Positions 8,540 through 61,929 of a stretch of 64,000 bases of DNA are shown here, one piece after another. Source of the DNA: Bacillota bacterium (lineage in GTDB: Bacteria > Bacillota > Dehalobacteriia > UBA4068); assembly GCA_024679955.1 (NCBI GenBank), contig JAILCQ010000021.1, positions 1 to 64,000 on the forward strand, in the 5' to 3' direction. Below the pieces are notes generated by a model. That model was not told the DNA's origin, did no database searches, and saw nothing but the letters and a program-made list of their open reading frames with translations. The translations under genes were made by a program, and so were the position numbers. The number at the start of each line of letters is the position of its first letter. Positions within the stretch are counted from its first letter, which is position 1.

Positions 8540-8790
8540 TGAATTATGCAAACCGGTGATTGAGAATAGTACCCTTTGGGAACCGTTTTCCCAGAGAGCC
8601 GCCGATGGTGGGATGGCGGCAAAACGGGCAAAGGCGAATGGACTCATGAGGGCGGCGTAATGGCCGACGGCACTCTGTCCGTTATCATGCAGAGCGTATG
8701 TGATGGCATACGATAAAAGCGGCCTTCGGGCAATTTGGGTGGCACCGCAGAGAAAATTCTTTGTCCCAAGATTGGGACAAAGTTTTTTTA
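8540..8790 (+). promoter_or_regulatory. T-box riboswitch, tryptophan specifier
   Basis: A tRNA-sensing leader. Seen in order: the GA-rich kink-turn region near 8560, the AGAGAG distal-loop motif near 8593, the specifier region GCGAATGGACTC with TGG (Trp) at 8639-8641 followed by A, the T-box sequence TGGGTGGCACCGCAG at 8736-8750, and a terminator hairpin (CTTTGTCCCA / TGGGACAAAG, 8759-8782) with seven Ts. Uncharged tRNA-Trp would pair with TGG and with the T-box bulge and favour the antiterminator, switching on the downstream trpB when tryptophan is scarce. The TGG frame is the best fit to the GAA-NNN-A context; ATG and GAC overlap it but fit less well. Confidence 0.92.
8759..8789 (+). terminator. 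T-box terminator hairpin
   Basis: Perfect 10-bp stem with the 4-nt loop AGAT and a run of seven Ts, 42 bp before the trpB start codon. It competes with the antiterminator formed by the T-box sequence. Confidence 0.9.
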
Positions 8791-8831: not shown

Positions 8832-10199
8832 ATGACGAACATCCCTTACAAAATCTATCTGGAAGAAAGCGAGATGCCTCGTCAATGGCAGAATATACGC
8901 GCTTTCATGAAGGAATTACCGGATCCGATGCTGAATCCCGCCACCATGAAGCCGTGTACAGCCCAAGACCTGGCCCCCGTGTTCTGTGAAAAGCTGATCG
9001 AACAGGAACTGAACGATACCGATCCCTATGTGGACATTCCCCAACCGATTTTGGACTTTTATCACATGTACCGGCCCTCGCCTTTGGTACGGGCCTACAA
9101 TCTGGAGCGGGAACTGGACACCCCGGCCCATATTTATTACAAATTTGAAGGCAACAACACCTCCGGCAGCCACAAGCTCAATTCGGCGGTAGCCCAGGTG
9201 TATTATGCCAAGGAACAGGGCATCACCGACCTGACCACGGAAACCGGCGCCGGCCAATGGGGTACGGCCATGGCTATGGCCTGCGGCTTTTTCAAAATGA
9301 ACCTCACCGTCTATATGGTCAAGGTTTCCTCGGAACAAAAGCCCTATCGCAAAGCCATTATGGAAACCTACGGCGCGAAAGTGATCGCCTCGCCTTCCGA
9401 CACTACGGAAGTAGGCCGGAAAATCCTCAGCCAGAATCCGGATACCGGCGGTTCTCTGGGCTGCGCCATTTCCGAAGCCCTGGAAAAAGCCCTGCAAAGC
9501 GATAAATGCCGCTATGTTTTGGGCAGCGTGCTGAATCATGTGATCCTGCACCAATCCATTATCGGCCAAGAAGCCAAAATCGCCATGGACAAATACGATA
9601 TTCAGCCGGATATGATCATCGGCTGCGCCGGCGGCGGCTCCAATCTGGCCGGTTTGATCGCCCCCTTTATGAGCCAACGGCTGCAGGGGAAAAACGACAT
9701 CCAGTTTATCGCCGTGGAACCGGCCTCCTGCCCGTCCCTGACCCGGGGCCGCTACGCCTACGATTTCGGCGACACCGGCCGCACCACGCCGCTGTTGAAG
9801 ATGTATACCCTGGGGTCCGGCTTTATGCCCTCCCCCAATCATGCCGGCGGCCTGCGCTATCACGGTATGAACCCCATCCTCTCCAAGCTGTATCATGACG
9901 GCTATCTGGAAGCCCGGGCTGTGGAGCAAAGCCAAGTGTTCGCCGCGGCACAGACCTTCATCCGCGCCGAAGGCACCCTGCCTGCGCCGGAATCCTGCCA
10001 TGCTTTGAAAGTGGCCATGGACGAAGCCATCCGATGCCGGGAGACCGGCGAAGCCAAGACCATCCTCTTCGGTCTGACCGGCACGGGCTATTTCGATATG
10101 GCCGCCTATCAATCGTTCAACGAAGGCAAAATGACCGACTACATCCCCAGCGACGCCGATTTGGAACCGGGATTCGCTTCCCTGCCGCAAATAGGATAG
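8832..10199 (+). CDS. trpB: Tryptophan synthase beta subunit, TrpB2 type
   Basis: PLP enzyme that joins indole and serine to make tryptophan. At 455 residues, with a long N-terminal extension (MTNIPYKIYLEESEMPRQW), it belongs to the TrpB2 branch rather than the ~400-residue TrpB1 that partners TrpA. The PLP lysine is K115 in SGSHKLNSAVAQ; the phosphate-binding loop is CAGGGSNLAG; ETGAGQWG is the substrate loop. AAAGGAGAA precedes the ATG. No trpA or other trp gene is nearby, so it may salvage external indole or work with a distant TrpA. Expression is controlled by the Trp T-box; a hairpin terminator follows it. Confidence 0.95.
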   Translation: MTNIPYKIYLEESEMPRQWQNIRAFMKELPDPMLNPATMKPCTAQDLAPVFCEKLIEQELNDTDPYVDIPQPILDFYHMYRPSPLVRAYNLERELDTPAHIYYKFEGNNTSGSHKLNSAVAQVYYAKEQGITDLTTETGAGQWGTAMAMACGFFKMNLTVYMVKVSSEQKPYRKAIMETYGAKVIASPSDTTEVGRKILSQNPDTGGSLGCAISEALEKALQSDKCRYVLGSVLNHVILHQSIIGQEAKIAMDKYDIQPDMIIGCAGGGSNLAGLIAPFMSQRLQGKNDIQFIAVEPASCPSLTRGRYAYDFGDTGRTTPLLKMYTLGSGFMPSPNHAGGLRYHGMNPILSKLYHDGYLEARAVEQSQVFAAAQTFIRAEGTLPAPESCHALKVAMDEAIRCRETGEAKTILFGLTGTGYFDMAAYQSFNEGKMTDYIPSDADLEPGFASLPQIG

Positions 10200-12560: not shown

Positions 12561-13994
12561 TTATTGCGGACGCAGCAGTTCTTCCAGAATGCGCCGGATC
12601 TCTCCCGGGTCGCCGGCGCCTTTCAATTGCCGCATGGCCTGGCCGAACAGGAAATCCAGGGCTTTGGTTTTGCCCCCCTGATAATCCGCCACCGACTTGG
12701 GATTCTCCGCCACGATAGAGGCCAGCAGTTTTTCCAAAGCGCCCTGATCCACCGCGGCGTCCAAATTATGCTCCTTGACATAGGCTTCCGGGTCCACATC
12801 GTCGCTGAAAATCGCGGCAAAAAGCTTTTTGCCGTTGACCCGGGTCAAGGTACGGTCCTCCACCGCCCGAATCAAATAGGCCAATTTATGCGGATCCAAT
12901 TCCAAATCGTCGATGGGCACCGCATGCTTTTTGGCCAGGGCCAAACCTTCGCCCACCAGCCAGTTGGCCGCTTCCTTGGGATTGCCGCACAGATCCGCGC
13001 TTTGCTCGAAGATCCGGGCCAGGGAGGGGCTTTGGCTCAGCAGGGCCGCGTCCTTGTCGCGGATGCCCCATTCCTGCACATAGCGTTCCTGCTTGCGATC
13101 GGGCATTTCCGGCAAAGCGGCCCGCACCTGCTCTATCCATTGGGAGGAAATCTCGATGGGGGCCAAGTCCGCGTCGGGGAAATAGAAATAATCCCCGGCG
13201 TTTTCCTTTTCCCGCATGGCGAAGCTGGCATTTTTGGCGTCGTCCCAACGGCGGGTCTCCTGGATCAGCGGCTCTCCCCACTCGATGGCGTCGATATGCC
13301 GCTCCGTTTCATAGGCGATGGCCCTTTCGATGGCGGAAAGGGAATTCATGTTCTTGATTTCCGTGCGCACGCCGAAATTGGGATCGCCCTTTTCCCGCAC
13401 GGACAAATTGACGTCGCAGCGGATGGAGCCTTCCTCAAAGCGGGCCCTGGCCACGCCGGCAAAACGCAGCAGGGAACGAAGTTTTTCCAAATAGGCGATG
13501 ACTTCCTCGGCGCTGCGAAAATCCGGTTTGCTGACGATTTCCACCAAAGGCACGCTGCAGCGGTTGTAATCCACCAAAGAGACGCCCAGGGTGTCGTCAT
13601 GGGTCAGTTTGCCCGCGTCTTCTTCCATATGGATCTGTTTGATGCCGATGCGTTTCACCCCTTGGGAAGTACGCACCTCCACATAGCCGTCGCGGCAAAT
13701 CGGCGCGTACAACTGGGTGATTTGATAGGAATTGGATAAATCCGGATAATAATAATTCTTTTTGTCAAAGGTGGTCACCGGACTGATTTTACAATTGGTG
13801 ACCAAACCGGCGGCGATGGCCAATTCCACCACTTTTTTATTGGTGACCGGCAGCAGTCCCGGCATACCGGCGCAAGCCGGACAAACATTTTGATTCGCTT
13901 CCGCCCCGTAGCCTACCGGACAAGCGCAAAAAATCTTGGAATTGGTGGCCAATTCGGCATGTACTTCCAACCCCATTACCACTTCATAAGCCAT
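12561..13994 (-). CDS. gatB: Asp/Glu-tRNA(Asn/Gln) amidotransferase subunit B
   Basis: GatB activates the mischarged Glu or Asp on tRNA with ATP and transfers ammonia to it. At 477 residues it is the family length. Seen: VMGLEVHAELAT at the start, the zinc cysteines KIFCACP and NVCPACAGMPG, the metal/ATP region IHMEEDAGK, the DVNLSVREKG and EIKNMNS motifs, and the C-terminal YqeY-like tail (LFGQAMRQLKGAGDP). These core motifs look intact, unlike those of its GatA partner. Start at 13994 with AAGGAGGG upstream; a long upstream extension of the frame runs into gatA and is not real. Last gene of the carbamoyltransferase-gatC-gatA-gatB cluster. Confidence 0.94.
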   Translation of the reverse strand: MAYEVVMGLEVHAELATNSKIFCACPVGYGAEANQNVCPACAGMPGLLPVTNKKVVELAIAAGLVTNCKISPVTTFDKKNYYYPDLSNSYQITQLYAPICRDGYVEVRTSQGVKRIGIKQIHMEEDAGKLTHDDTLGVSLVDYNRCSVPLVEIVSKPDFRSAEEVIAYLEKLRSLLRFAGVARARFEEGSIRCDVNLSVREKGDPNFGVRTEIKNMNSLSAIERAIAYETERHIDAIEWGEPLIQETRRWDDAKNASFAMREKENAGDYFYFPDADLAPIEISSQWIEQVRAALPEMPDRKQERYVQEWGIRDKDAALLSQSPSLARIFEQSADLCGNPKEAANWLVGEGLALAKKHAVPIDDLELDPHKLAYLIRAVEDRTLTRVNGKKLFAAIFSDDVDPEAYVKEHNLDAAVDQGALEKLLASIVAENPKSVADYQGGKTKALDFLFGQAMRQLKGAGDPGEIRRILEELLRPQ

Positions 13995-14013: not shown

Positions 14014-15384
14014 TTATTTGCCCAAAGCGGCTGCGGCGGCAAACACAGCGCCGTCCTGCCCCTGCGCCCCAAACAGCTGGCAGGGCAAAGGCAGCCCCGC
14101 CTGATCCCGGCCAACGCTGAAAGCGACTGCCGGCAATCCCAGCAGGCTGGGAATGGCCGCGTAGAAGCGGTCGCGGAAGGAAAGCCTGCCGCCCCGGTCT
14201 TCCCCGGCCGCATAAGGCGGCCCAGCGGCCAAGGGGGTCAGCACCAGCGGATATTCCCGGAACAAATCGTTCATTTCCTGCCACAGCAAATGCCGGACCT
14301 GCAAAGCCTTATAGTAATAGGTTTGATACTGCTCTTTGGCCAGCACATATACGCCCAACACCGCGTCCCGCTTCACTTCCATGCCCAGGCCCTGGCTGCG
14401 GCTGTTGCAATACAGTTCTTCCATGTTTTTATATTCCGGCGCCCGGTAGCCGTATTTCACCCCGTCGAAACGGGAAACGTTATTGCAGCCCTCCGCCGCG
14501 GCGATGGCCGTCAGCGCCAAATGGGCGTAAGCGGCGTAACGGGTTTTGACTTCCACCGGTTCGATACCGGCCCGGCGCAGCAGGGAGACGCCTTGCTCCA
14601 AACAACGGCGGTCATAGTCATTGGTTTGATAGTCCACCAGCACCGCCGCTTTTTTACCGGCGATTTCCTGGGACAAATCATAGGTATACGCTTCCTGGGG
14701 CAAGCTGGCGCCGTCTTTGGGGTCATGCCCGGCCGCCAGATGCAGCAGTTCCGCCGCCTCGGCCACGACCGGCGCAATGGCGGCGATCTGCTCGCAGGAA
14801 GACACATTGGCGATCACGCCGAAGCGGGATACCGTGCCATAAGAGGGTTTACAGCAAACCACCCCGGCCTGGGCCGCCTGCCGGCGCACTTCGCCCAGGC
14901 TGTCCACGGCCAAAGCCAGGGGCACGATGCCGGCGGCCACCGCGGCGGCCGCGCCGCCGGAGCGCCGTCCCGCGTCCAGCGGATGGGTCACCGGCCCGAA
15001 ATAGGAGCTTTCCTCCCCGCCCATTTTCAATTCGCCCATATTGGCTTTGCCCAGCAGCACCAAACCGGCCTCGTCCAGACGGCGTATGACTTCCGCGCCA
15101 AAGGGCGGCGCGAAATTGGCCAGCATGCGGCTGCCGCCGCTGCTGATTTGATGTTCCACCATGATGCCGTCTTCCGCCACATAGGGCAAACCGGTCAAAG
15201 GGCCGGTCAGGCCGGCGTCGATACGCCGCTGCGCTTCCCGGCTTTGGGCTTCCGCCCGCTGCCTGTCCACCAAAGTCAAACAGTTCAATGTATCCGCCCC
15301 GGCGGCGGCCAAAGCTTTTTCCGTCCAGGCCATGGCGGCGTTTTCGCCGGCTTTCCAATCGTCGCAAAATCCCTTAGCTGCCAT
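14014..15384 (-). CDS. gatA: GatA-like amidase-family subunit lacking the catalytic triad
   Basis: 456 residues with the amidase-signature fold throughout: GLPY...EDGI, a KANMGELKMGGEESSYFGP-type stretch, SGGAAAAVAAG, KPSYGTVSRFGV and the C-terminal NSRSQGLGMEVKR. Normal GatA hydrolyses glutamine with a Lys-Ser-Ser triad. Here the Lys of the IKDN motif is E71 (VAEDG), the cis-Ser of GGSSGGS is R141 (GRRSGGA, with about four residues missing just before) and the nucleophile Ser of DTGGSIRQP is E165 (DSLGEVRRQ). Both strands of the sequence were checked at these places and the frame is unbroken. It is therefore unlikely to be a glutaminase. It sits between gatC (16 bp) and gatB (19 bp). Either the complex uses free ammonia or another nitrogen donor, or the protein has another role. 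Confidence 0.88.
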   Translation of the reverse strand: MAAKGFCDDWKAGENAAMAWTEKALAAAGADTLNCLTLVDRQRAEAQSREAQRRIDAGLTGPLTGLPYVAEDGIMVEHQISSGGSRMLANFAPPFGAEVIRRLDEAGLVLLGKANMGELKMGGEESSYFGPVTHPLDAGRRSGGAAAAVAAGIVPLALAVDSLGEVRRQAAQAGVVCCKPSYGTVSRFGVIANVSSCEQIAAIAPVVAEAAELLHLAAGHDPKDGASLPQEAYTYDLSQEIAGKKAAVLVDYQTNDYDRRCLEQGVSLLRRAGIEPVEVKTRYAAYAHLALTAIAAAEGCNNVSRFDGVKYGYRAPEYKNMEELYCNSRSQGLGMEVKRDAVLGVYVLAKEQYQTYYYKALQVRHLLWQEMNDLFREYPLVLTPLAAGPPYAAGEDRGGRLSFRDRFYAAIPSLLGLPAVAFSVGRDQAGLPLPCQLFGAQGQDGAVFAAAAALGK

Positions 15385-15400: not shown

Positions 15401-15682
15401 CTAATCCGCCACCCGGGGCGTCACATAAGCGCCGTCCATTTCTTCCGGGGCGCAGGCCAGTATTTCCTCACGGCTGACGGTTTGCTCCGCCACATCTTCC
15501 CGCAGAACCTGGCGCAGGGAGGTCAAATAAATCATCGGCGGCGTGTCGCCGCAATCCAGTTCGGCCAAAGGGGCCAATTGCGACAACTGCCACCGGATCA
15601 GATCGCGCAATTCCTCTTTTTCTTCCCCTTCCAATACAAATTTATTGAACCGGCAATATACGTCAAATTTTTCCGTGTCCAT
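15401..15682 (-). CDS. gatC: GatC-like subunit of the amidotransferase
   Basis: 93-residue small subunit that wraps around the GatA-GatB interface. Recognised from the C-terminal half (LRQVLREDVAEQTVSREEIL and APEEMDGAYVTPRV), which matches the GatC signature. The N-terminal half (FDVYCRFNKFVLEGEEKEEL) is more divergent than usual. Start with AAGGACGGAG upstream. Followed closely by gatA. Confidence 0.85.
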   Translation of the reverse strand: MDTEKFDVYCRFNKFVLEGEEKEELRDLIRWQLSQLAPLAELDCGDTPPMIYLTSLRQVLREDVAEQTVSREEILACAPEEMDGAYVTPRVAD

Positions 15683-15707: not shown

Positions 15708-16895
15708 CTATTTCATTTGCCGCGGCATTTGTCCGGCGGCCAAAGCCAGCAAAGCGGCGCTGGGGTCTTGAATTTTCGCCAGGAAGATCATGGCTGCGAT
15801 AATATAGGGCTTGTAACTGGCTTGTTTATACAAAGAAATGCGGTTGCGGTCGAATACTTCCCGGCTGACCTCGCCGCTTTCACAGGAGACGCCGCTGATA
15901 TCCGCCGGCAGGCAGTGCAGGTACAGGCCTTTGCCCTCCTTGGTCAAGCGCATTTTTTCCTCCGTACATTGCCAATCCTTATGCCGGCTGTTCTGGGCCA
16001 GCATCTCCTGTTCCAAGCGGTCGATGCCGGCCTGATCCCCCTGATCGAACAACTGGGTGCGCCGTTCCATGGCGGCAAAGGGCGCCCAGCTCTTGGGATA
16101 CACCACGTCCGCGCCGTCGAAGGCCTCTTCCATGGAATCGGCCCGGCGGAAGCTGCCGCCGTTTTCCGCCGCCTGGCGGGCGGCCAAAGCTTCGATTTCC
16201 GGCATGATCTCATAGCCTTGCGGGTGGGCCAAAACGATATCGGCCCCGAAGCGGCTCAGCAGTCCGATAATGCCCTGGGGCACGGACAGGGGTTTGCCGT
16301 AGGAGGGGGAATAGGCCCAGGTCATGGCGATTTTTTTGCCCCGCAGCTGTTCTATACCGCCCAGCTCATGGATCAAATGCAGCGTGTCGGCCATGGTCTG
16401 AGTGGGATGGTCGATATCGCATTGCAGATTGACCAGGGTGGGCTTTTGCGCCAAAATACCGTCGGCATGTCCCTGGCGCACGGCTTCCGCCACCTGGCGC
16501 ATATAGGCGTTGCCCCGGCCGATGAACATATCGTCGCGGATGCCGATGACGTCGGCCATAAAGGAAACCATATTGGCGGTCTCCCGTACCGTTTCCCCAT
16601 GGGCCAATTGGGATTTTCCTTCATCCAGATCCTGGACGGCCAGGCCCAGCAAATTGCAGGCGGAAGCGAAAGAAAAGCGGGTGCGGGTAGAATTGTCCCG
16701 AAACAGGGAAACCCCCAGGCCGCTGTCAAAGATCCGCGGCGAAATATTATGCTCCCGCAGGGCCCGCAAAGCGTCGGCCACCGCAAAAACGCCTTGCAGC
16801 TCGTCCATGGTTTTTTCCCAGGTGAGGAAAAAATCCCCTTCGTACATTTTTCGTAATTTCAAGCCTTTGATCGTATCCATACATTTGCTTAACAT
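15708..16895 (-). CDS. ygeW: Knotted carbamoyltransferase, YgeW family
   Basis: 395-residue aspartate/ornithine carbamoyltransferase-fold enzyme. Seen: the carbamoyl-phosphate loop SLFRDNSTRTRFSFASA (STRTR), HGETVRET, CDIDHPTQTMADTLH and LYLHCLPADI. The long insert after HCLP and the LTWEKTMDEL start match the YgeW group rather than ATCase or OTCase; its physiological acceptor is not settled. The ATG at 16895 has GGAGG 8 bp upstream; a longer frame adds 15 residues without a ribosome site. It is the first gene of the cluster with gatCAB (25 bp to gatC), suggesting linked nitrogen metabolism. Confidence 0.88.
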   Translation of the reverse strand: MLSKCMDTIKGLKLRKMYEGDFFLTWEKTMDELQGVFAVADALRALREHNISPRIFDSGLGVSLFRDNSTRTRFSFASACNLLGLAVQDLDEGKSQLAHGETVRETANMVSFMADVIGIRDDMFIGRGNAYMRQVAEAVRQGHADGILAQKPTLVNLQCDIDHPTQTMADTLHLIHELGGIEQLRGKKIAMTWAYSPSYGKPLSVPQGIIGLLSRFGADIVLAHPQGYEIMPEIEALAARQAAENGGSFRRADSMEEAFDGADVVYPKSWAPFAAMERRTQLFDQGDQAGIDRLEQEMLAQNSRHKDWQCTEEKMRLTKEGKGLYLHCLPADISGVSCESGEVSREVFDRNRISLYKQASYKPYIIAAMIFLAKIQDPSAALLALAAGQMPRQMK

Positions 16896-45913: not shown

Positions 45914-46184
45914 TTACCGTGCGCTTGGCTTTGAACAAAACCTTCCAGGCGCTGATCAAACAGCCGGCTCAAACCAGGCGAACCCGCGGCGCCCGGGACA
46001 AATCCGCTTACCGCTGCTTCCTTCCGGACCTGACGGGGTTCGCGGCAGCCCGCCGCGCGGGACCCGATTCTCAACGCCACTTATTCAAGGCTGACCCCAC
46101 AAGGCCTGCCCGAGGCCGAAGCATGGACCCTACTATAGCGGATTGAAGGTTCAGGGAGCCGCTACCGCCCCGTCCTGCACGGTA
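45914..46184 (-). ncRNA. ffs: Signal recognition particle RNA, large Bacillus type
   Basis: Roughly 270-nt RNA (scRNA form with Alu domain). On the minus strand it opens with CCGTGC and ends with GCACGG, closing the long helix. The Alu part shows GGGGCGGTAGCGGCTCCCTG and ATCCGCTATAGTAGGG; the S-domain tip has AGGTCCGGAAGGAAGCAG (46028-46011), the Ffh-binding helix 8 signature. The order of these parts matches the Bacillus subtilis scRNA. Ends are set from the terminal pairing, good to about 5 nt. Confidence 0.95.
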
Positions 46185-47966: not shown

Positions 47967-47987
47967 GATAGACGTTCCAACTGGATA

Positions 47988-48078
47988 ACAGGGGCGCTGG
48001 AGCAATCCGGCTGAGAGTGAGGTTAAAGCACCTCTGACCCATAACCTGATCCGGATAATACCGGCGTAGGGAAATAAT
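47988..48078 (+). promoter_or_regulatory. TPP (THI-box) riboswitch
   Basis: Binds thiamine pyrophosphate. The diagnostic parts are GGGGCGCTGG, CTGAGAGTGAGG, ACCCATAACCTGATCCGG and ATAATACCGGCGTAGGGA. Followed by a terminator at 48094-48124, so bound TPP would stop transcription of the transporter genes. Confidence 0.97.
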
Positions 48079-48093
48079 AAAGACTTATTTTCT

Positions 48094-51382: not shown

Positions 51383-54300
51383 ATGAAAAAGAAATTGCTA
51401 AGCTTGTTTATAGCGCTGTTCCTGCTGGCCGGCATAGCCACCGCCGGCATACTGGCTACGGACGCCTTTTCCGCGTCCCTGCCCTCGGCGAACAGCGTAT
51501 GGAACGGTTCCACCATTACGGTGAACCAAGATAACCTCTTGCCCGGCGCCGGCGGCGTGGAAGATTTGCTTTCCGCCGGAGAACGATCCGAGAGCATCGT
51601 CCGGACGGCGGGGGTTATGAGAACCACAGACTCTCCAACCAAAGCCGGCAGCCAGGTGCGGGTGATTGTGGAGAATGCCACATATCCTGTATCCGAAGGC
51701 GCGCCTTGGGATGGCACGCTGGTAGATACATGGGTGGCCATCGATAACAGCTCCACCATGATGTCCTGCGTGGTGGCGGCCCTGGATTCGGTGGGCGCTA
51801 CCCAGGAAGGCGCGGAGGACGGCTACATATCCGAAGTAAACGGTTTGCAAGCCTTTGACGGTGGCGCAGAATCCGGCTGGATGGGCTTGCTCAACGACTG
51901 GCTCGTCAACGAGGGTTTCCCTGAGTTCACCGTAGCCAGCGGCAAACTGCAGGCCGACGACGTGATCCACATCATGTATAGCCGCAATGGTTATGGCGCG
52001 GATCTGGGCGGCACCTGGGAAAACCAGAACAAAACCCTGAAATCCCTTGCATTTGACGCAGGCGCTTTGTCTCCTGCCTTTGCATCGAATACCACAAACT
52101 ATACCCTGACCGTACCGGCGGGAACGAGCCAGGTAACGGTGACGCCCACCGCTGCCAATAAGAATTACCAGGTGCGGATCAAAAGCGGCAACGGCCAATA
52201 CCTGAACCCGGGCGCCAGGACGGTAACGGTGGAGGACGGCACTGTCATCACCGTCACCTGCGGCGACCCGTCATGGCCCAGTATGAACGGCCCCGATGGA
52301 GATCCTGTCAGCTATACCGTCACGGTAGCGGCGGAGAGCGCTGCCGGGAACACCCTGCCCACCCTGGCGGAAGGGGTGGCAGCCTCGGTCAACGCCAAGG
52401 TAGCCGCCGCCGGCAGCTACACCGTAGACCTGAGCCAAATCTTCACCGACGCGGACGGCGATGAGCTTACCTATAAAGTAAGCGTCAACGGCGCAGACCC
52501 TGTGGCCGCGGCTGAAAACTACAGCTATACCATGGATGGCAGCAGCGCCACCCTGGTCTTCACCGCCAATGACGGCCAGGCTGACAGCGAAGATACCTAC
52601 ACCGTCCAACTCAAGAAAAACGGCAAACCGTACATCCGGACTGCCAGCAACAAGACAAAGACCGGCACCGCCGAAATAAACCGGGAATACAGCTTTACCA
52701 TCAGCATGTTCACCGATCCCGACCGGGATACCATGACTTACCAGGTCAGCATCAACGGCGGCGAATATCAGGACGCGGCCCGGGCCTACAAATACACGCC
52801 TACGGCGGAAGGCACGGATACCCTGGTATTCCGGGCCTATGACGGCACGGAGTATTCCGACGACGTCTGCACGCTGACCCTGACGGTGGTCTCCAATCTG
52901 ACCCCCATCACCGTACCCAGCTACGCCACGCTATTGCTGGAAGAAAAGAACTTCAGCGGCTACAACTACAAATATTTCGATCCGGTACAGCCGGTTTCCA
53001 CCACCGTGGATCAGCAGGCCGGAACCACCACCTATTACTTTAATTTACCCAAAACCGCCAGCATGGCCTATCGGATTCGGGTCAGCGGCGAAGGCTGCGT
53101 CACCTATGCCAATCTGTTCACCAAGACGGCGGGCTACAGCCTGACGGTCAGCGACGCGGATCTGAAGCCGGAGGGCAAGACCCCGGCCACCGTGGAGCAC
53201 GACGCCAGCGCCAACAAAGGCTACAATATGGCGGACGTATTCCTCAACATCAACGCCCAGGGCTATCTGCGCCTGGCGGATGTGGGCAGCAGCTACCAGA
53301 TCGTCAATCTGCGCAACTGGGAAGCGGTGGACAGCACCACGGGCAATAATTTCGTGGAACCGGACTACCACTATACCGTGATCGACGAAAACGGCCGGCC
53401 CTCCAGCAATGTGGTCACCGTCAGCGATACGGGCCTGATCAACGCCGTGGGCCAAGGCACGGCCATCGTACTGGTCAATTATGACGCCATGACCTATCCG
53501 GCCGGCAATTCGGTAGGCGGCACCTTCTACGGCGCGCTGTGGCCGGAGAACACCGGCGTTTTCGTGGTCAGCGTGGGCGCGGCGGCCAGCGGCATCAACA
53601 CCGGCATGACCATAAACGAAGGGAAGAATACCTCTACCCAGAAGCTGTCCGCGGACGCGTTAGACGCCGAGCTGGACGTCATTTACTTCCTGGGTGAAAG
53701 CGGGGAATACACCTTCACGCCGGGCACCACGGGCGTAAGCGTATCCGTGGCCAAACCCAGCATCACCAGAGGCAGCAGCCTGGCCTACAGCGGCTTCCAA
53801 GCCGTTGCCGCCAATGACGACGGCAGCTACAGCGTGCCGCTGGCCAAAGGACGCAACATCGTCAAGCTGGAAAAGGATGGCAAAGCGGAATACCAGGTGA
53901 TCTCCGCCAAGCCCGTCGCCGTCACCGTCAACAACGGCGCGGTGGTCAATCCCGGCGACAAACTGAGCATCGTTTTCGACACGCTGTACCATCCCGCCAA
54001 TAAGCTGGCCGGCGTATACAACATGAACGCCATCGCCCTGTACACCGATGTGGACGCGGTGGAGGACGGCCAGCTGGTAGGCGGCACAGCCAACCAATAT
54101 AAATTCGCCTCCACTGCCGCGGCGCAAACCATCGACCGGGTGGTCAAGCAAGGCAGCGGCGGTTTTACAGGGGTCAGCTTCACCAAGGTGGCCGACCTGG
54201 CCGTGCCGGAAGACTGGACGGAGGATACCTTTACCCTCTCCGGCGGCGCGATCATGGCCTTTGGTTTCGGCGATCCCTACGGCAACCACCGGGCCATCAC

Positions 54301-57300
54301 CTACACCGGCGGCAAGGATCCCAACATGAGCGCTTCCACCCGGATCGCCTATATGGGCATGCTGCCGGATATCGTCATCCCCATCGGCGAACAAGCGGCG
54401 AACACCGCTCCCACCCTGGCGGAAGGCGTGGAAGAAACCGCTGCCAAAGAAATAGCCAAGGGCGAAACCTACACAGTCAACCTGGATGAAATCTTCACCG
54501 ACGCGGAAGAAGACGATCTCACCTACAAAGTCTCCGTCAACGGCGCGGACGCCGTAGACGCAAGCGCGGACTACAGCTATACGCCGCAAAGCAACGGCCG
54601 GGTCACCCTGGTCTTCACCGCCAATGACGGCCAGCTGGATTCCGACAAAAACTATACCGTGACCCTGACCGTAAAAGATCCGGTTACCGTTGAGATCACC
54701 GCCAGTGTCAGCAAATACGGCGCATTCGTCAACGATAAGAACGGCGAGCTGCTGGTACAAAAACCGGTGACCCTCAGCGGCAAGCTGAGCTACACCTTAA
54801 ACGACGCTTTCGCCGCCATCCATGACGCCTATTATCCGGGCGGCGCGACGGCGGGTTACGCCACCAGCGAGACCCAATGGGGCACCAGCGTAACCAAATT
54901 CTGGAACGATACCTCCGGCAATATCGCCTACCAGATCGATCATGGCGACGTTTATGTCATGGGGCCCGACACAGCTGTGGAAGACGGCAATGAAGTGGAA
55001 GCCTATATCCTGGAGAGCAATTATCCGGACAGCGAAGCGTATGTGACCTTTGACAAGAGCCAGGCCACGGTCTTCGCCGGCGAAACGCTGGAGCTGACCC
55101 TGAGCAAACAGGAATACGATGACAACTGGATGCCGGTGATGACCCCCTACACCGACGGCGCGGACATCACCGTGGACGGAGAAGCCAACGGCGCAGTCAC
55201 CGACCGCAACGGCAAAGTCTCCCTCAGCTTTGACGAACCCGGTACTTACCTGGTCTCCGCCAAAGATACCAAGCAGGTGAACGGCCAAACGGTCACCGCC
55301 ATCACCGCGCCTGCCTGCACCGTCACCGTGAAAGCGGTCACCACGGCGGAAGTGGACTTCACCTCCCAGAAATCCGGTGAATTCCTGCATGCGCCGCAAT
55401 TCGGCGTAGAGGTAGCCTCCAATCTGGCGGAAAGCTACGGCTACACGGATTCCGTGGACGGCGTTTCCGTCCTGGACGTGCTGGTCAAAGCCCATGAATT
55501 GGTCTATGAAGACGACTTCACCGCCGCTAGCGCGGAAGATTATCTGAAGATATCCGCCGCCTCCGGCTCCCCGAGCAAACAGTTCGGCGTGGATCCGGAA
55601 GCCAGCGGCAAATATCTGGGTGGATTCTTCCTCAACCATGCCATGGCCAATGACGGCACCATGTACGACCAAAGCAATTACAACGCCACCACCGTTACCA
55701 CCCAGGCGGTAACCGACGGCGACCTGGTGGAATTCTTCTTTTACGAAGACCCCTACTTCGGCGATTCCTACAACTGGTTCCTGGATGAAGACGAAAAATA
55801 CAGCCGGGAATTCGACGCCGTGGCCGGCCAGGACCTGGATCTGGTGATGAAGAGCTTCTTCGCCATGAGCAGCTCCATCTTTAAGGATGAAGCGGAAATG
55901 GTAGCCTCTTCCCGGCCCAGCGAAGTGGATTCCGCCCAAGTCTACATCGTCGATCCCAAGACCGGCGCGCTGACGGCCATAGAAGGCGCGGAAGTGGAAG
56001 ACGGCGAAGTGACCCTGAACTTTGCCGAGCCCGGCAGTTATCTGATCACCGCCTACGGCACGGAGGACAGCATGTTCATGCAGCTGCTGACCCTGACCAC
56101 CGTCACCGTGGCGGAGCCGGAAAACACCGCTCCCACCCTGGCGGAAGGCGTAGCAGCCTCGGCCACCGTCACGATCCCTGCCGGCGACAGCTATAGCGTA
56201 GATTTGAGCAGCATCTTCACGGATGCGGACGATGACGAGCTTACCTATAAAGTCTCCGTCAACGGCGCGGATCCCGTGGCTGCGGATGAAAACTACAGCT
56301 TCACCCCGGACGGCGACGGCGCCACCCTGGTATTCACCGCCAATGACGGCAAGGAAGACAGTGAGGACACCTATACCGTAGAAATCCAGATAAGCAGCAG
56401 TGGCGGCAGCGACGAGAACCATCTGCCCACCCTGGCCCAGGGCGTACCGGCCTCGGTTACCGTGACCTTGCCCGCCGGCGGCAGATACAACGTGAATCTC
56501 AACCAAATCTTCACCGATGCGGACGGAGACGAACTCACCTATAAAGTAAGCGTCAACGGCGCGGATCCTGTGACCGCCAATCCCTATTACACCTTCCTCT
56601 CCAACGGCAACAGAGCCACCCTGGTATTCACCGCCAATGACGGCCAGGGCGACAGTGAGGATACCTATACCGTACAGATCCGCAGAGAGAGCAACAGCGG
56701 TAACAGCGGCAGCCACAGCGGCAGCGGCAATAACGACAGCGCGAACAAGCCCGACGACGCAGTCGCAAAGGTAGAAGCGCTGATCCAAAAAATCGGCGAC
56801 GTAACGTTGGACAAAGAAGACGCCATCCAGGCCGCCAGAACGGCTTATGACGCGCTGAGCGACGCGCAGCAGAAACAGGTGAAGAACTTCGACGATCTGC
56901 GCGACGCCGAAAACAAACTGGCCCAACTGAAAGAAGCGGCGGGCAAGAACCGCTTCCGCGATGTGGACGCCAACGCCTATTATGCGGACGCCGTAAACTG
57001 GGCGGTGGATAAAGGCGTCACCGAAGGCACCGGCCCGGATACCTTCAGCCCCGGCCTGGTTTGCAGCCGGGCCCAAGTGGTCACCTTCCTCTGGCGGGCG
57101 GCAGGTTCTCCCGAACCCAATAGCAGCGAAAATCCCTTCACCGATGTGGAAAAAGGCAGCTATTATGAAAAAGCCGTCCTCTGGGCCGTGGAAAACGGCG
57201 TCACCGAAGGCACCGGCGCTACCACCTTCGGCCCCGATCAGGGCTGCAGCCGGGCACAAGTGGTCACCTTCCTCTGGCGGGCGGCAGGTTCTCCCGAGCC

Positions 57301-57478
57301 CAATAGCAGCGAAAATCCCTTCACCGATGTGGAAAAAGGCAGCTATTATGAAAAGGCCGTCCTCTGGGCCGTGGAAAACGGCATCACCGAAGGCACCGGC
57401 GCCACCACCTTCAGCCCCGACCAAAGCTGCAACCGGGCGCAAATCGTTACCTTCCTCTATCGCGCCGCGCAGCAATAA
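51383..57478 (+). CDS. Giant SLH-anchored surface protein with DUF4430 and cadherin-like repeats
   Basis: 2031 residues. Signal peptide 1-30; DUF4430-like module (~85-200; TMMSCVVAALDSVGATQEG, MYSRNGYGADLGG); cadherin-like beta-sandwich (~212-305); five repeats of about 90 residues (from ~322, 413, 1006, 1580 and 1678) with the core PTLAEGV, FTDADGDELTYKVSVNGADP and LVFTANDG; a BIG2-like part (~620-740); two more DUF4430-like modules (~1100-1240, ~1330-1470); a Ser/Gly/Asn linker (~1770-1787); a FIVAR-like helical bundle (~1790-1853); and three SLH domains (1855-2031) that bind wall polysaccharide. AAAGGAAG before the ATG. DUF4430 resembles the transcobalamin ligand domain, so small-molecule binding is possible, not shown. 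Confidence 0.9.
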   Translation: MKKKLLSLFIALFLLAGIATAGILATDAFSASLPSANSVWNGSTITVNQDNLLPGAGGVEDLLSAGERSESIVRTAGVMRTTDSPTKAGSQVRVIVENATYPVSEGAPWDGTLVDTWVAIDNSSTMMSCVVAALDSVGATQEGAEDGYISEVNGLQAFDGGAESGWMGLLNDWLVNEGFPEFTVASGKLQADDVIHIMYSRNGYGADLGGTWENQNKTLKSLAFDAGALSPAFASNTTNYTLTVPAGTSQVTVTPTAANKNYQVRIKSGNGQYLNPGARTVTVEDGTVITVTCGDPSWPSMNGPDGDPVSYTVTVAAESAAGNTLPTLAEGVAASVNAKVAAAGSYTVDLSQIFTDADGDELTYKVSVNGADPVAAAENYSYTMDGSSATLVFTANDGQADSEDTYTVQLKKNGKPYIRTASNKTKTGTAEINREYSFTISMFTDPDRDTMTYQVSINGGEYQDAARAYKYTPTAEGTDTLVFRAYDGTEYSDDVCTLTLTVVSNLTPITVPSYATLLLEEKNFSGYNYKYFDPVQPVSTTVDQQAGTTTYYFNLPKTASMAYRIRVSGEGCVTYANLFTKTAGYSLTVSDADLKPEGKTPATVEHDASANKGYNMADVFLNINAQGYLRLADVGSSYQIVNLRNWEAVDSTTGNNFVEPDYHYTVIDENGRPSSNVVTVSDTGLINAVGQGTAIVLVNYDAMTYPAGNSVGGTFYGALWPENTGVFVVSVGAAASGINTGMTINEGKNTSTQKLSADALDAELDVIYFLGESGEYTFTPGTTGVSVSVAKPSITRGSSLAYSGFQAVAANDDGSYSVPLAKGRNIVKLEKDGKAEYQVISAKPVAVTVNNGAVVNPGDKLSIVFDTLYHPANKLAGVYNMNAIALYTDVDAVEDGQLVGGTANQYKFASTAAAQTIDRVVKQGSGGFTGVSFTKVADLAVPEDWTEDTFTLSGGAIMAFGFGDPYGNHRAITYTGGKDPNMSASTRIAYMGMLPDIVIPIGEQAANTAPTLAEGVEETAAKEIAKGETYTVNLDEIFTDAEEDDLTYKVSVNGADAVDASADYSYTPQSNGRVTLVFTANDGQLDSDKNYTVTLTVKDPVTVEITASVSKYGAFVNDKNGELLVQKPVTLSGKLSYTLNDAFAAIHDAYYPGGATAGYATSETQWGTSVTKFWNDTSGNIAYQIDHGDVYVMGPDTAVEDGNEVEAYILESNYPDSEAYVTFDKSQATVFAGETLELTLSKQEYDDNWMPVMTPYTDGADITVDGEANGAVTDRNGKVSLSFDEPGTYLVSAKDTKQVNGQTVTAITAPACTVTVKAVTTAEVDFTSQKSGEFLHAPQFGVEVASNLAESYGYTDSVDGVSVLDVLVKAHELVYEDDFTAASAEDYLKISAASGSPSKQFGVDPEASGKYLGGFFLNHAMANDGTMYDQSNYNATTVTTQAVTDGDLVEFFFYEDPYFGDSYNWFLDEDEKYSREFDAVAGQDLDLVMKSFFAMSSSIFKDEAEMVASSRPSEVDSAQVYIVDPKTGALTAIEGAEVEDGEVTLNFAEPGSYLITAYGTEDSMFMQLLTLTTVTVAEPENTAPTLAEGVAASATVTIPAGDSYSVDLSSIFTDADDDELTYKVSVNGADPVAADENYSFTPDGDGATLVFTANDGKEDSEDTYTVEIQISSSGGSDENHLPTLAQGVPASVTVTLPAGGRYNVNLNQIFTDADGDELTYKVSVNGADPVTANPYYTFLSNGNRATLVFTANDGQGDSEDTYTVQIRRESNSGNSGSHSGSGNNDSANKPDDAVAKVEALIQKIGDVTLDKEDAIQAARTAYDALSDAQQKQVKNFDDLRDAENKLAQLKEAAGKNRFRDVDANAYYADAVNWAVDKGVTEGTGPDTFSPGLVCSRAQVVTFLWRAAGSPEPNSSENPFTDVEKGSYYEKAVLWAVENGVTEGTGATTFGPDQGCSRAQVVTFLWRAAGSPEPNSSENPFTDVEKGSYYEKAVLWAVENGITEGTGATTFSPDQSCNRAQIVTFLYRAAQQ
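57077..57442 (+). repeat. Tandem 183-bp DNA repeat encoding SLH domains
   Basis: Two consecutive SLH units are almost identical at the DNA level (period 183 bp, 61 codons; the block starting GTGGTCACCTTCCTCTGGCG recurs at 57077 and 57260), with a third, slightly more diverged end. Silent sites match too, which points to recent duplication or gene conversion. Confidence 0.8.
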
Positions 57479-60515: not shown

Positions 60516-60546
60516 ATTGCCGGCGCAAAGCGCCGGCAATGTTTTT
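60516..60546. terminator. Hairpin after the second DUF1638 gene
   Basis: ATTGCCGGCG and CGCCGGCAAT, perfect 10-bp stem with a CAAAG loop. The T-run (GTTTTTT) is on the plus strand, where no gene ends; on the minus strand it lies directly after the DUF1638 stop codon without a good T-run. Probably an end structure for that gene. Confidence 0.5.
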
Positions 60547-61205
60547 TAAAAGAACTGCTCCGTTTGGAGGATCTGCCCTTTTTCCACCACCATGAATTGC
60601 TGATCCCAGCGGCCGGCAAACAGCTTTTCCAAAATCAGATTGCTGGCGGGAACATGGCGGTAAGGACACTCCATTATGGCGGCCACCTTTTCCACTTTAG
60701 CGAGAAAATCCTTGTCGTGAGCGTCGTATGTGCCGTTCTCCATTATATCCACAGAAACATAGTCTTTATATAACATGCGCGTCAGTTTTTCACAACGCCG
60801 AGGGCCGAATTTTTCCAAAGCGGAATCATATTCGTCCTGAATGAAATTCTTCACATTAATATAGCCGTAGCTCAGATACATATGGCCTATTTCTTTCAGA
60901 TTTGCGTGGCGTTCATCATCCTGATGCAGGAAAATGGTTACGCAATCATCCATACGCGGCACCACCAAACGGCAGGGGGCGGAAAAACCGACGATGGCGT
61001 TGCCGCACAGAGCCATGGCCAGCAGCACCGTATCCACCTCCGGCGGCAATTCCTGCAGTTTTTTTTCTATTTCCTTACGCAATCTCGACGGATAGGCGTG
61101 CAAACCGCCGTCGATATATACGATGGGAAAGGAACAGTTCACCTTTTCCCAGGCCGCTTCCACCTCGTGTTTTAAAATCTCACAGGCTAAAATTGCCGTA
61201 GTCAT
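60546..61205 (-). CDS. DUF1638 family protein, copy 2
   Basis: 219 residues. DUF1638 core: MTTAILACEILKHEVEAAW, LAMALCGNAIVGFSAPC and VVPRMDDCVTIFLHQDDE, with conserved Cys and Asp/His residues that could bind a metal. The function is unknown; family members are often near corrinoid or methyl-transfer genes in other organisms, but none is seen here. About 85% identical by eye to the next copy upstream, most changes being conservative. Confidence 0.85.
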   Translation of the reverse strand: MTTAILACEILKHEVEAAWEKVNCSFPIVYIDGGLHAYPSRLRKEIEKKLQELPPEVDTVLLAMALCGNAIVGFSAPCRLVVPRMDDCVTIFLHQDDERHANLKEIGHMYLSYGYINVKNFIQDEYDSALEKFGPRRCEKLTRMLYKDYVSVDIMENGTYDAHDKDFLAKVEKVAAIMECPYRHVPASNLILEKLFAGRWDQQFMVVEKGQILQTEQFF

Positions 61206-61269
61206 ATTCTATCCTCCGCTTGGTCCATCTATTGTTGCCGGATATGGCGCAACGTACCGGACATGGTTT

Positions 61270-61929
61270 TTAAAAGAACTGCTCTGTTTGGAGGATCTGC
61301 CCTTTTTCCACCACCATGAATTGTCCGTCCCAGCGGCCGGCAAACAGCTTCTCCAAAACCAGATTGCTGGCGGGGACATGCCGGTAGGGACAGCCGATGA
61401 TGCCAGCCACTTTTTCCACCTTAGCGAGAAAATCCTTGTCATGGGCGTCGTAAGCGCCGTTTTCCACTACATCTACAGAGACATAATCTTGATATAGTAT
61501 GCGCGTCATTTTTTCACAGCGCCGGGGGCCGTACTTTTCCAAAGCATAGTCGTAATCGTCCTGGACAAAATTTTTTATATTGATATAGCCATAATTCAAA
61601 TAGAAATGTCCCTTTTCCTTCAGATTTGCATGACGTTCGTCATTCTGGTGCAGGAAAATCGTAGCGCAATCGTCCATGCGCGGCACCACCAAACGGCAGG
61701 GAGCGGCAAAACCGACGATGGCGTTGCCGCACAGGGCCATGGCCAACAATACCGTGTCCACCTCCGGCGGCAGCTCCTGCAGCTTTTTTTCTATTTCCTG
61801 GCGCAATTTCTGCGGAACCATATGCAAACCGCCGTCGATATATACGATGGGATAGGAACAGTTTACTTTTTCCCGCGCCGCCTCCACTTCCTGTTTCAAT
61901 ATCTCACAGGCCAAGATCACCGTAGTCAT
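61270..61929 (-). CDS. DUF1638 family protein, copy 1
   Basis: 219 residues, same length and layout as its neighbour (MTTVILACEILKQEVEAAR, ALCGNAIVGFAAPCRLV, MDDCATIFLHQNDER, QFMVVEKGQILQTEQFF). The two genes are head to tail with a 64-bp spacer, and the match continues a few bases past each stop codon, so the duplication unit included the 3' flank. AGGGGGAAGG lies before the ATG. Confidence 0.85.
   Translation of the reverse strand: MTTVILACEILKQEVEAAREKVNCSYPIVYIDGGLHMVPQKLRQEIEKKLQELPPEVDTVLLAMALCGNAIVGFAAPCRLVVPRMDDCATIFLHQNDERHANLKEKGHFYLNYGYINIKNFVQDDYDYALEKYGPRRCEKMTRILYQDYVSVDVVENGAYDAHDKDFLAKVEKVAGIIGCPYRHVPASNLVLEKLFAGRWDGQFMVVEKGQILQTEQFF

Follow-up and report, generated by a model that had tools for sequence, protein, structure and literature searches.

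Four genes on the reverse strand form an apparent operon in the window, the whole stretch of 64,000 nucleotides analysed. The first gene, ygeW (15708..16895), encodes a knotted carbamoyltransferase which matches the YgeW family with 724 bits (cut-off 500) and lies 25 bases upstream of gatC2 (15401..15682), coding for a divergent GatC of 93 amino acids. They are followed by gatA2 (14014..15384), the middle gene of gatC2-gatA2-gatB2, whose predicted product is an amidase-fold pseudo-glutaminase of 456 amino acids, and by gatB2 (12561..13994), whose GatB product has a cradle domain and a YqeY tail domain. The linkage of ygeW with gatC2 recurs in the same gene order in G001, an uncultured Peptococcaceae bacterium, and is confined to the host's genus, so that wide conservation of the link is ruled out; in other genera the neighbours of this second GatCAB (GatCAB2) are recO or ybaK/DUF1846, named by eye from sequence. 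No T-box was detected at the host operon or at the operons of its relatives, which rules out T-box control by tRNA-Asn of the kind found in Clostridium acetobutylicum. The T-box leader present in the window (8547-8771, forward strand, 94.6 bits) is located just upstream of a TrpB-like gene (8832-10199).

The reading frame of gatA2 is uninterrupted over 456 codons. In phmmer alignments with solved GatAs (S. aureus GatA numbering) E71 aligns with Lys79 and E165 with Ser178, and the position of cis-Ser154 is occupied by R141 after a deletion of four residues; in the MAFFT alignment the cis-Ser154 column is a gap, the Ser being absent by both methods, and S142 is the counterpart of the second Ser of GGSS. 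The earlier note had described the replacement of the triad by E71, R141 and E165 together with a deletion of about four residues, and the alignment to solved GatAs bears it out, with the cis-Ser read either as R141 or as a gap. The phmmer alignments and MAFFT alignments of two kinds rule out an intact Lys/Ser/Ser at shifted columns, and alignment with S. aureus GatA (K79, S154, S178) reveals no intact triad at any other column. Two glutamine-binding residues are also replaced, R358 by D340 and D425 by Arg; we take R358 and D425 of S. aureus GatA to be the counterparts of yeast R334 and D418. In the yeast protein R334 binds the glutamine carboxylate and D418 its amide (PMC4027206). All five residues (K79, S154, S178, R358 and D425) are kept in 67 of the 80 rows of a non-random GatA comparison set, which argues that their loss from GatA2 is not due to chance.

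Against TIGR00132, the NCBIfam GatA equivalog, GatA2 scores 305 bits, below the cut-off of 481, versus 608 bits for GatA1 of the same genome, and its match to the amidase signature PF01425 reaches 243 bits (cut-off 27). The predicted structure of GatA2 (mean pLDDT 81, pTM 0.87) gives a TM-score of 0.89 to 4wj3_A and a range of 0.78-0.89 to solved GatAs, with the reservation that the model was built with canonical GatAs as alignment rows and is uninformative on the pocket. The fold is thus predicted to be intact and of GatA type. With the triad and both glutamine ligands lost from such a fold, the designation of GatA2 as a pseudo-amidase is supported.

The partner subunits are preserved to different degrees. 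GatB2 scores 521 bits against a GatB cut-off of 314.8 and is recognised by TIGR00133, PF02934 and PF02637. The ATP- and Mg-binding residues E10, H12, E124/E125, E152, N196 and S198, whose roles have been described (PMC4027206), are all present together with the four zinc Cys, and the claim that the zinc and ATP motifs of GatB are intact agrees with this residue-by-residue alignment. Nine positions set GatB2 apart from every other GatB compared, and three of them (R78K, F82Y and P87S) fall in the loop FDRKNYFYPDLPK, where the adjacent Lys88 is replaced by Asn (N88). The last change is a weak signature of the clade, as the Lys is missing in other GatBs too. Lys88 presumably corresponds to Lys89 of Helicobacter pylori GatB, which is reported to belong to the ammonia tunnel where GatA and GatB meet (Zhao 2012, cited in PMC4027206). 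The clustering of three GatB2-specific changes near this loop, which lines the tunnel, could point to altered chemistry. GatC2 passes the Pfam cut-off (PF02686, 37.1 bits, cut-off 23) and falls under that of NCBIfam (TIGR00135, 36 bits, cut-off 47.1).

GatB2-type genes accompanied by GatA2 occur in seven genomes of four genera in the host's family (G000, G001, G003, G019, G011, G017 and G013), and the GatB2 clade is monophyletic with support of 100/100. Six GatA2s can be read across the active site and none of them has the triad, that of G011 being cut off before the Lys, and the seventh, in G019, is frame-shifted and readable in part only. The triads read E/R/E, D/L/A, E/L/A and D/L/A, the short deletion before the cis-Ser is identical in all, and R358 and D425 are lost throughout the readable GatA2s. 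A conserved salt bridge E71-R141-E165 is ruled out, as the relatives read D-L-A and E-L-A. In G019 the gatA2 gene (L038, G019:C34) is apparently split by a frame-shift, arising from decay or assembly error. GatC2 is encoded in all seven genomes except G011, whose contig ends. In f2 and f7, sister families within the same class, the single GatCAB has an intact triad, and its GatA is among the 67 rows with all five residues. A motif scan of genome contigs matched mostly Lachnospiraceae GatAs with intact triads, because the motif SRFDGVKY is common to them. The comparison of sequences confirms that some uncultured gut-type Peptococcaceae-related bacteria encode, beside a normal copy, a second GatCAB with a glutaminase subunit predicted to be dead.

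Between two species of the host's genus the Nei-Gojobori dN/dS was 0.10 for gatA2, 0.04 for gatB2, 0.05 for ygeW and 0.05 for gatA1; YN00 gave 0.17 for gatA2. Between genera GatB2 retains 69% identity versus 71% for GatB1, and GatA2 only 42% versus 71% for GatA1, with GatC2 diverging fast alongside GatA2. These values indicate that GatA2 is maintained yet freed from the glutaminase constraint, and that GatB2 has not been freed. The suggestion that the intact frame reflects selection rather than decay is supported by the purifying dN/dS of about 0.10 and by the presence of the operon in four genera, with the frame-shifted G019 copy as a caveat.

The host genome (1.92 Mb, 96% complete) contains exactly two PF01425 genes, the second of which is gatA1 in a normal gatC1-gatA1-gatB1 arrangement on contig C5 with K, S, S, R and D intact. 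This GatCAB1 rules out GatCAB2 as the sole essential GatCAB of the host. A genome search for a second gatA, glnS and asnS yielded, besides GatCAB1, a GlnRS (recognised from sequence and by analogy with scored relatives), and no match over the curated cut-off for AsnRS; AspRS and LysRS are also present. In bacteria the AspRS motif carries H in non-discriminating enzymes and L in discriminating ones, and the host AspRS, with H in RDHGG, is taken by us to be of the non-discriminating type. The single tRNA-Asn gene detected in the host carries U1-A72, the pair required by GatCAB (PMC4206432). With GlnRS present, AsnRS not found and a U1-A72 tRNA-Asn, the cell has to obtain its Asn-tRNA(Asn) through a GatCAB but can make Gln-tRNA(Gln) without one. 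Given the intact GatCAB1 and the GlnRS, the idea that the complex has stopped making Gln-tRNA or Asn-tRNA cannot be carried over to the cell. G001 and G003 encode, at L168 and L173, a divergent protein of about 550-565 residues that resembles GluRS. In the host GlnRS alone was found of this class of synthetases, and the host assembly may lack the GluRS gene.

A clue to the substrate is provided by G013, in which a 715-residue AspRS-GatC fusion (L037:3141-5285, G013:C115) comprises the anticodon-binding, catalytic and GAD domains of AspRS and a C-terminal GatC, and is directly followed by gatA2 and then gatB2. The fused AspRS has the motif RDHGG; another, separate AspRS of the same genome has RNLGG. 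The fusion suggests that GatCAB2 acts on Asp-tRNA(Asn), and taken with the missing AsnRS it makes this the most likely substrate as judged from sequence.

Loss of the GatA glutaminase residues is not limited to the GatA2 clade, and at least two further independent cases were found, one in G037 with G035 and the other in G009; the GatA tree was run in quick mode and counts of independent losses are unsure beyond the three robust ones. In G037 (L223, G037:C1, about 3507898-3510658), a complete single-contig genome, and in G035 (L225, G035:C120) Lys79 of a second GatA is replaced by Q or N and the nucleophile loop is deleted; this copy sits beside an intact first GatCAB and arose independently of the clade of the window. 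In G009 the only GatA detected (L275:4067-5527, G009:C142) departs from the canonical form only in the replacement of Lys79 by D and of Ser178 by A; AsnRS is present and GlnRS was not found in this 85% complete genome. Weaker cases are the second copy of G065, G098, the apparently single GatCAB of G004 (GatA S178G with the N-terminus missing; GlnRS present and AsnRS not found in a 90% complete genome), and the sole GatA of G143 (L227:2681-4168, G143:C50), which has K79A and a deleted cis-Ser region with the nucleophile Ser kept, next to a GatB in which EEEAGR replaces EEDAGK. Given the completeness of G009 and G004, a second GatCAB copy may have been missed in either. As both AsnRS and GlnRS are present in G037, G035 and G143, the persistence of dead GatAs there is not explained by translation alone, and they may have a role other than in the supply of aminoacyl-tRNA. 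We put forward only tentatively, and with some doubt, that glutaminase loss is recurrent in Clostridia and that several lineages, among them G009 and G004 apparently with their only GatCAB, may amidate tRNA with free ammonia or use a different nucleophile.

To account for the host operon we propose that gatC2-gatA2-gatB2 specify, in addition to GatCAB1, a specialised tRNA-dependent amidotransferase, to which we give about an even chance of being a working Asp-tRNA(Asn) amidotransferase with a scaffold pseudo-glutaminase, fed by free ammonia. GatA2 would neither bind nor hydrolyse glutamine and, with GatC2, would form the structural half that holds GatB2 in shape. GatB2 would still bind ATP and Mg and activate, by phosphorylation, the carboxylate in the side chain of the amino acid on a mis-acylated tRNA, with Asp-tRNA(Asn) as the most likely substrate; this carboxylate would then be amidated by ammonia from solution instead of the glutamine-derived ammonia channelled from GatA. 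Among the options offered by the earlier note, a complex taking its ammonia from elsewhere would be the most likely. It has been shown that yeast GatFAB supplied with NH4Cl can do without its glutaminase, and that a weakened glutaminase scaffold even raised the ammonium-driven transamidation (PMC4027206). The apparently single GatCABs of G009 and G004, with the nucleophile replaced, were also counted for the use of ammonia. The operation envisaged is like that of human CPS1, in which an inactive glutaminase domain is kept, free ammonia is taken up and the tunnel is altered (PMC4655335); the likeness lies in the inactive glutaminase-like domain and the free ammonia, and with an unrelated protein family and product CPS1 serves as precedent only.

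With an intact GatCAB1 available to the cell, GatCAB2 may have no catalytic activity at all, and GatC2A2B2 might instead hold, sort or shield Asp-tRNA(Asn) or another tRNA and so regulate its supply to GatCAB1. The YqeY tail domain retained in GatB2 and the dead copies that persist beside AsnRS and GlnRS in G037 and G035 are compatible with such a role, which we nevertheless consider unlikely, as a mere binder would not need the checked ATP and Mg residues, all of which are kept, nor a GatB2 that diverges no more than GatB1. Less probable again is a new chemistry in which the carboxylate activated by GatB2 is passed to a nucleophile other than ammonia, or the substrate is another acylated tRNA or acceptor, making the supply of ammonia by GatA useless. 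K78, Y82 and S87, the K to N change in the tunnel loop and the recurrence of glutaminase loss in genomes carrying GlnRS would suit it, but no consistent partner gene accompanies the complex (ygeW in the host's genus only, recO or ybaK/DUF1846 elsewhere) and the AspRS-GatC2 fusion speaks for Asp-tRNA(Asn).

It is very unlikely that GatB2 pairs with GatA1 while gatA2 is being lost: the rapid divergence of GatA2 and GatC2 and the frame-shift in G019 might be read in this way, but comparison of the two species of the host's genus reveals purifying selection on gatA2, and GatC2 and GatA2 diverge together with open frames in four genera. We regard as even less probable the supply of ammonia to GatCAB2 by a dedicated enzyme, for example YgeW acting via carbamoyl phosphate and carbamate kinase. 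The position of ygeW and the order repeated in G001 prompt the idea, and YgeW forms carbamoyl phosphate from a ureido substrate in uric acid breakdown, a route to ammonia (PMC12507026). The host ygeW belongs to the same family as YgeW of this reductive uric acid pathway, but neither carbamate kinase nor the uricolytic genes were recognised around it in the window, and its link with GatCAB2 is positional and seen in one genus. The least probable explanation is that gatA2 has decayed to a pseudogene or is an assembly chimera; the absence of all catalytic residues, the origin of the sequences from metagenome-assembled genomes and the G019 frame-shift would fit it, but it is contradicted by species assembled independently that have the losses and the deletion in common, with open frames and low dN/dS, as well as by the parallel case in the complete genome of G037.

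The amidotransferase proposed here shares with the solved GatCABs of S. aureus, Aquifex aeolicus and Thermotoga maritima (PDB 2df4, 3h0l and 3al0) the three-subunit operon, the GatA fold and the ATP, Mg and Zn residues of GatB; unlike them it has a GatA without the Lys-cisSer-Ser triad, R358 and D425, a changed GatB loop 78-88, and GatA and GatC subunits under the NCBIfam cut-offs. In C. acetobutylicum an additional GatCAB and an additional AspRS are devoted to Asn-tRNA(Asn) (Saad 2012, cited in PMC4206432), an arrangement paralleled by the AspRS-GatC2 fusion of G013. Where PMC4206432 cites that system, glutaminase loss is not mentioned; the T-box at its operon has no counterpart here. The open-access literature searched, with subscription journals lying mostly outside its scope, yielded no description of a GatA with a dead glutaminase.

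GatCAB is usually treated as glutamine-dependent, with the glutaminase coupled to GatB via an ammonia tunnel, and a clade that lacks the glutaminase and glutamine ligands and keeps the GatB site offers a natural test of the purpose of this coupling. If driven by ammonia, GatCAB2 would be the tRNA-amidation counterpart of CPS1 and would connect free ammonia with the decoding of Asn in anaerobes. For annotation it is a warning that a gatA match does not imply the use of glutamine.

Other features of the window include a large SRP RNA (45917-46182, reverse strand) and a TPP riboswitch (47980-48089, forward strand). The forward strand encodes, at 51383-57478, a surface protein of 2031 residues that combines SLH, cadherin-like and DUF4430 domains, and two similar adjoining genes of about 220 codons each, the first of which matches DUF1638, occupy 60546-61929 on the reverse strand.
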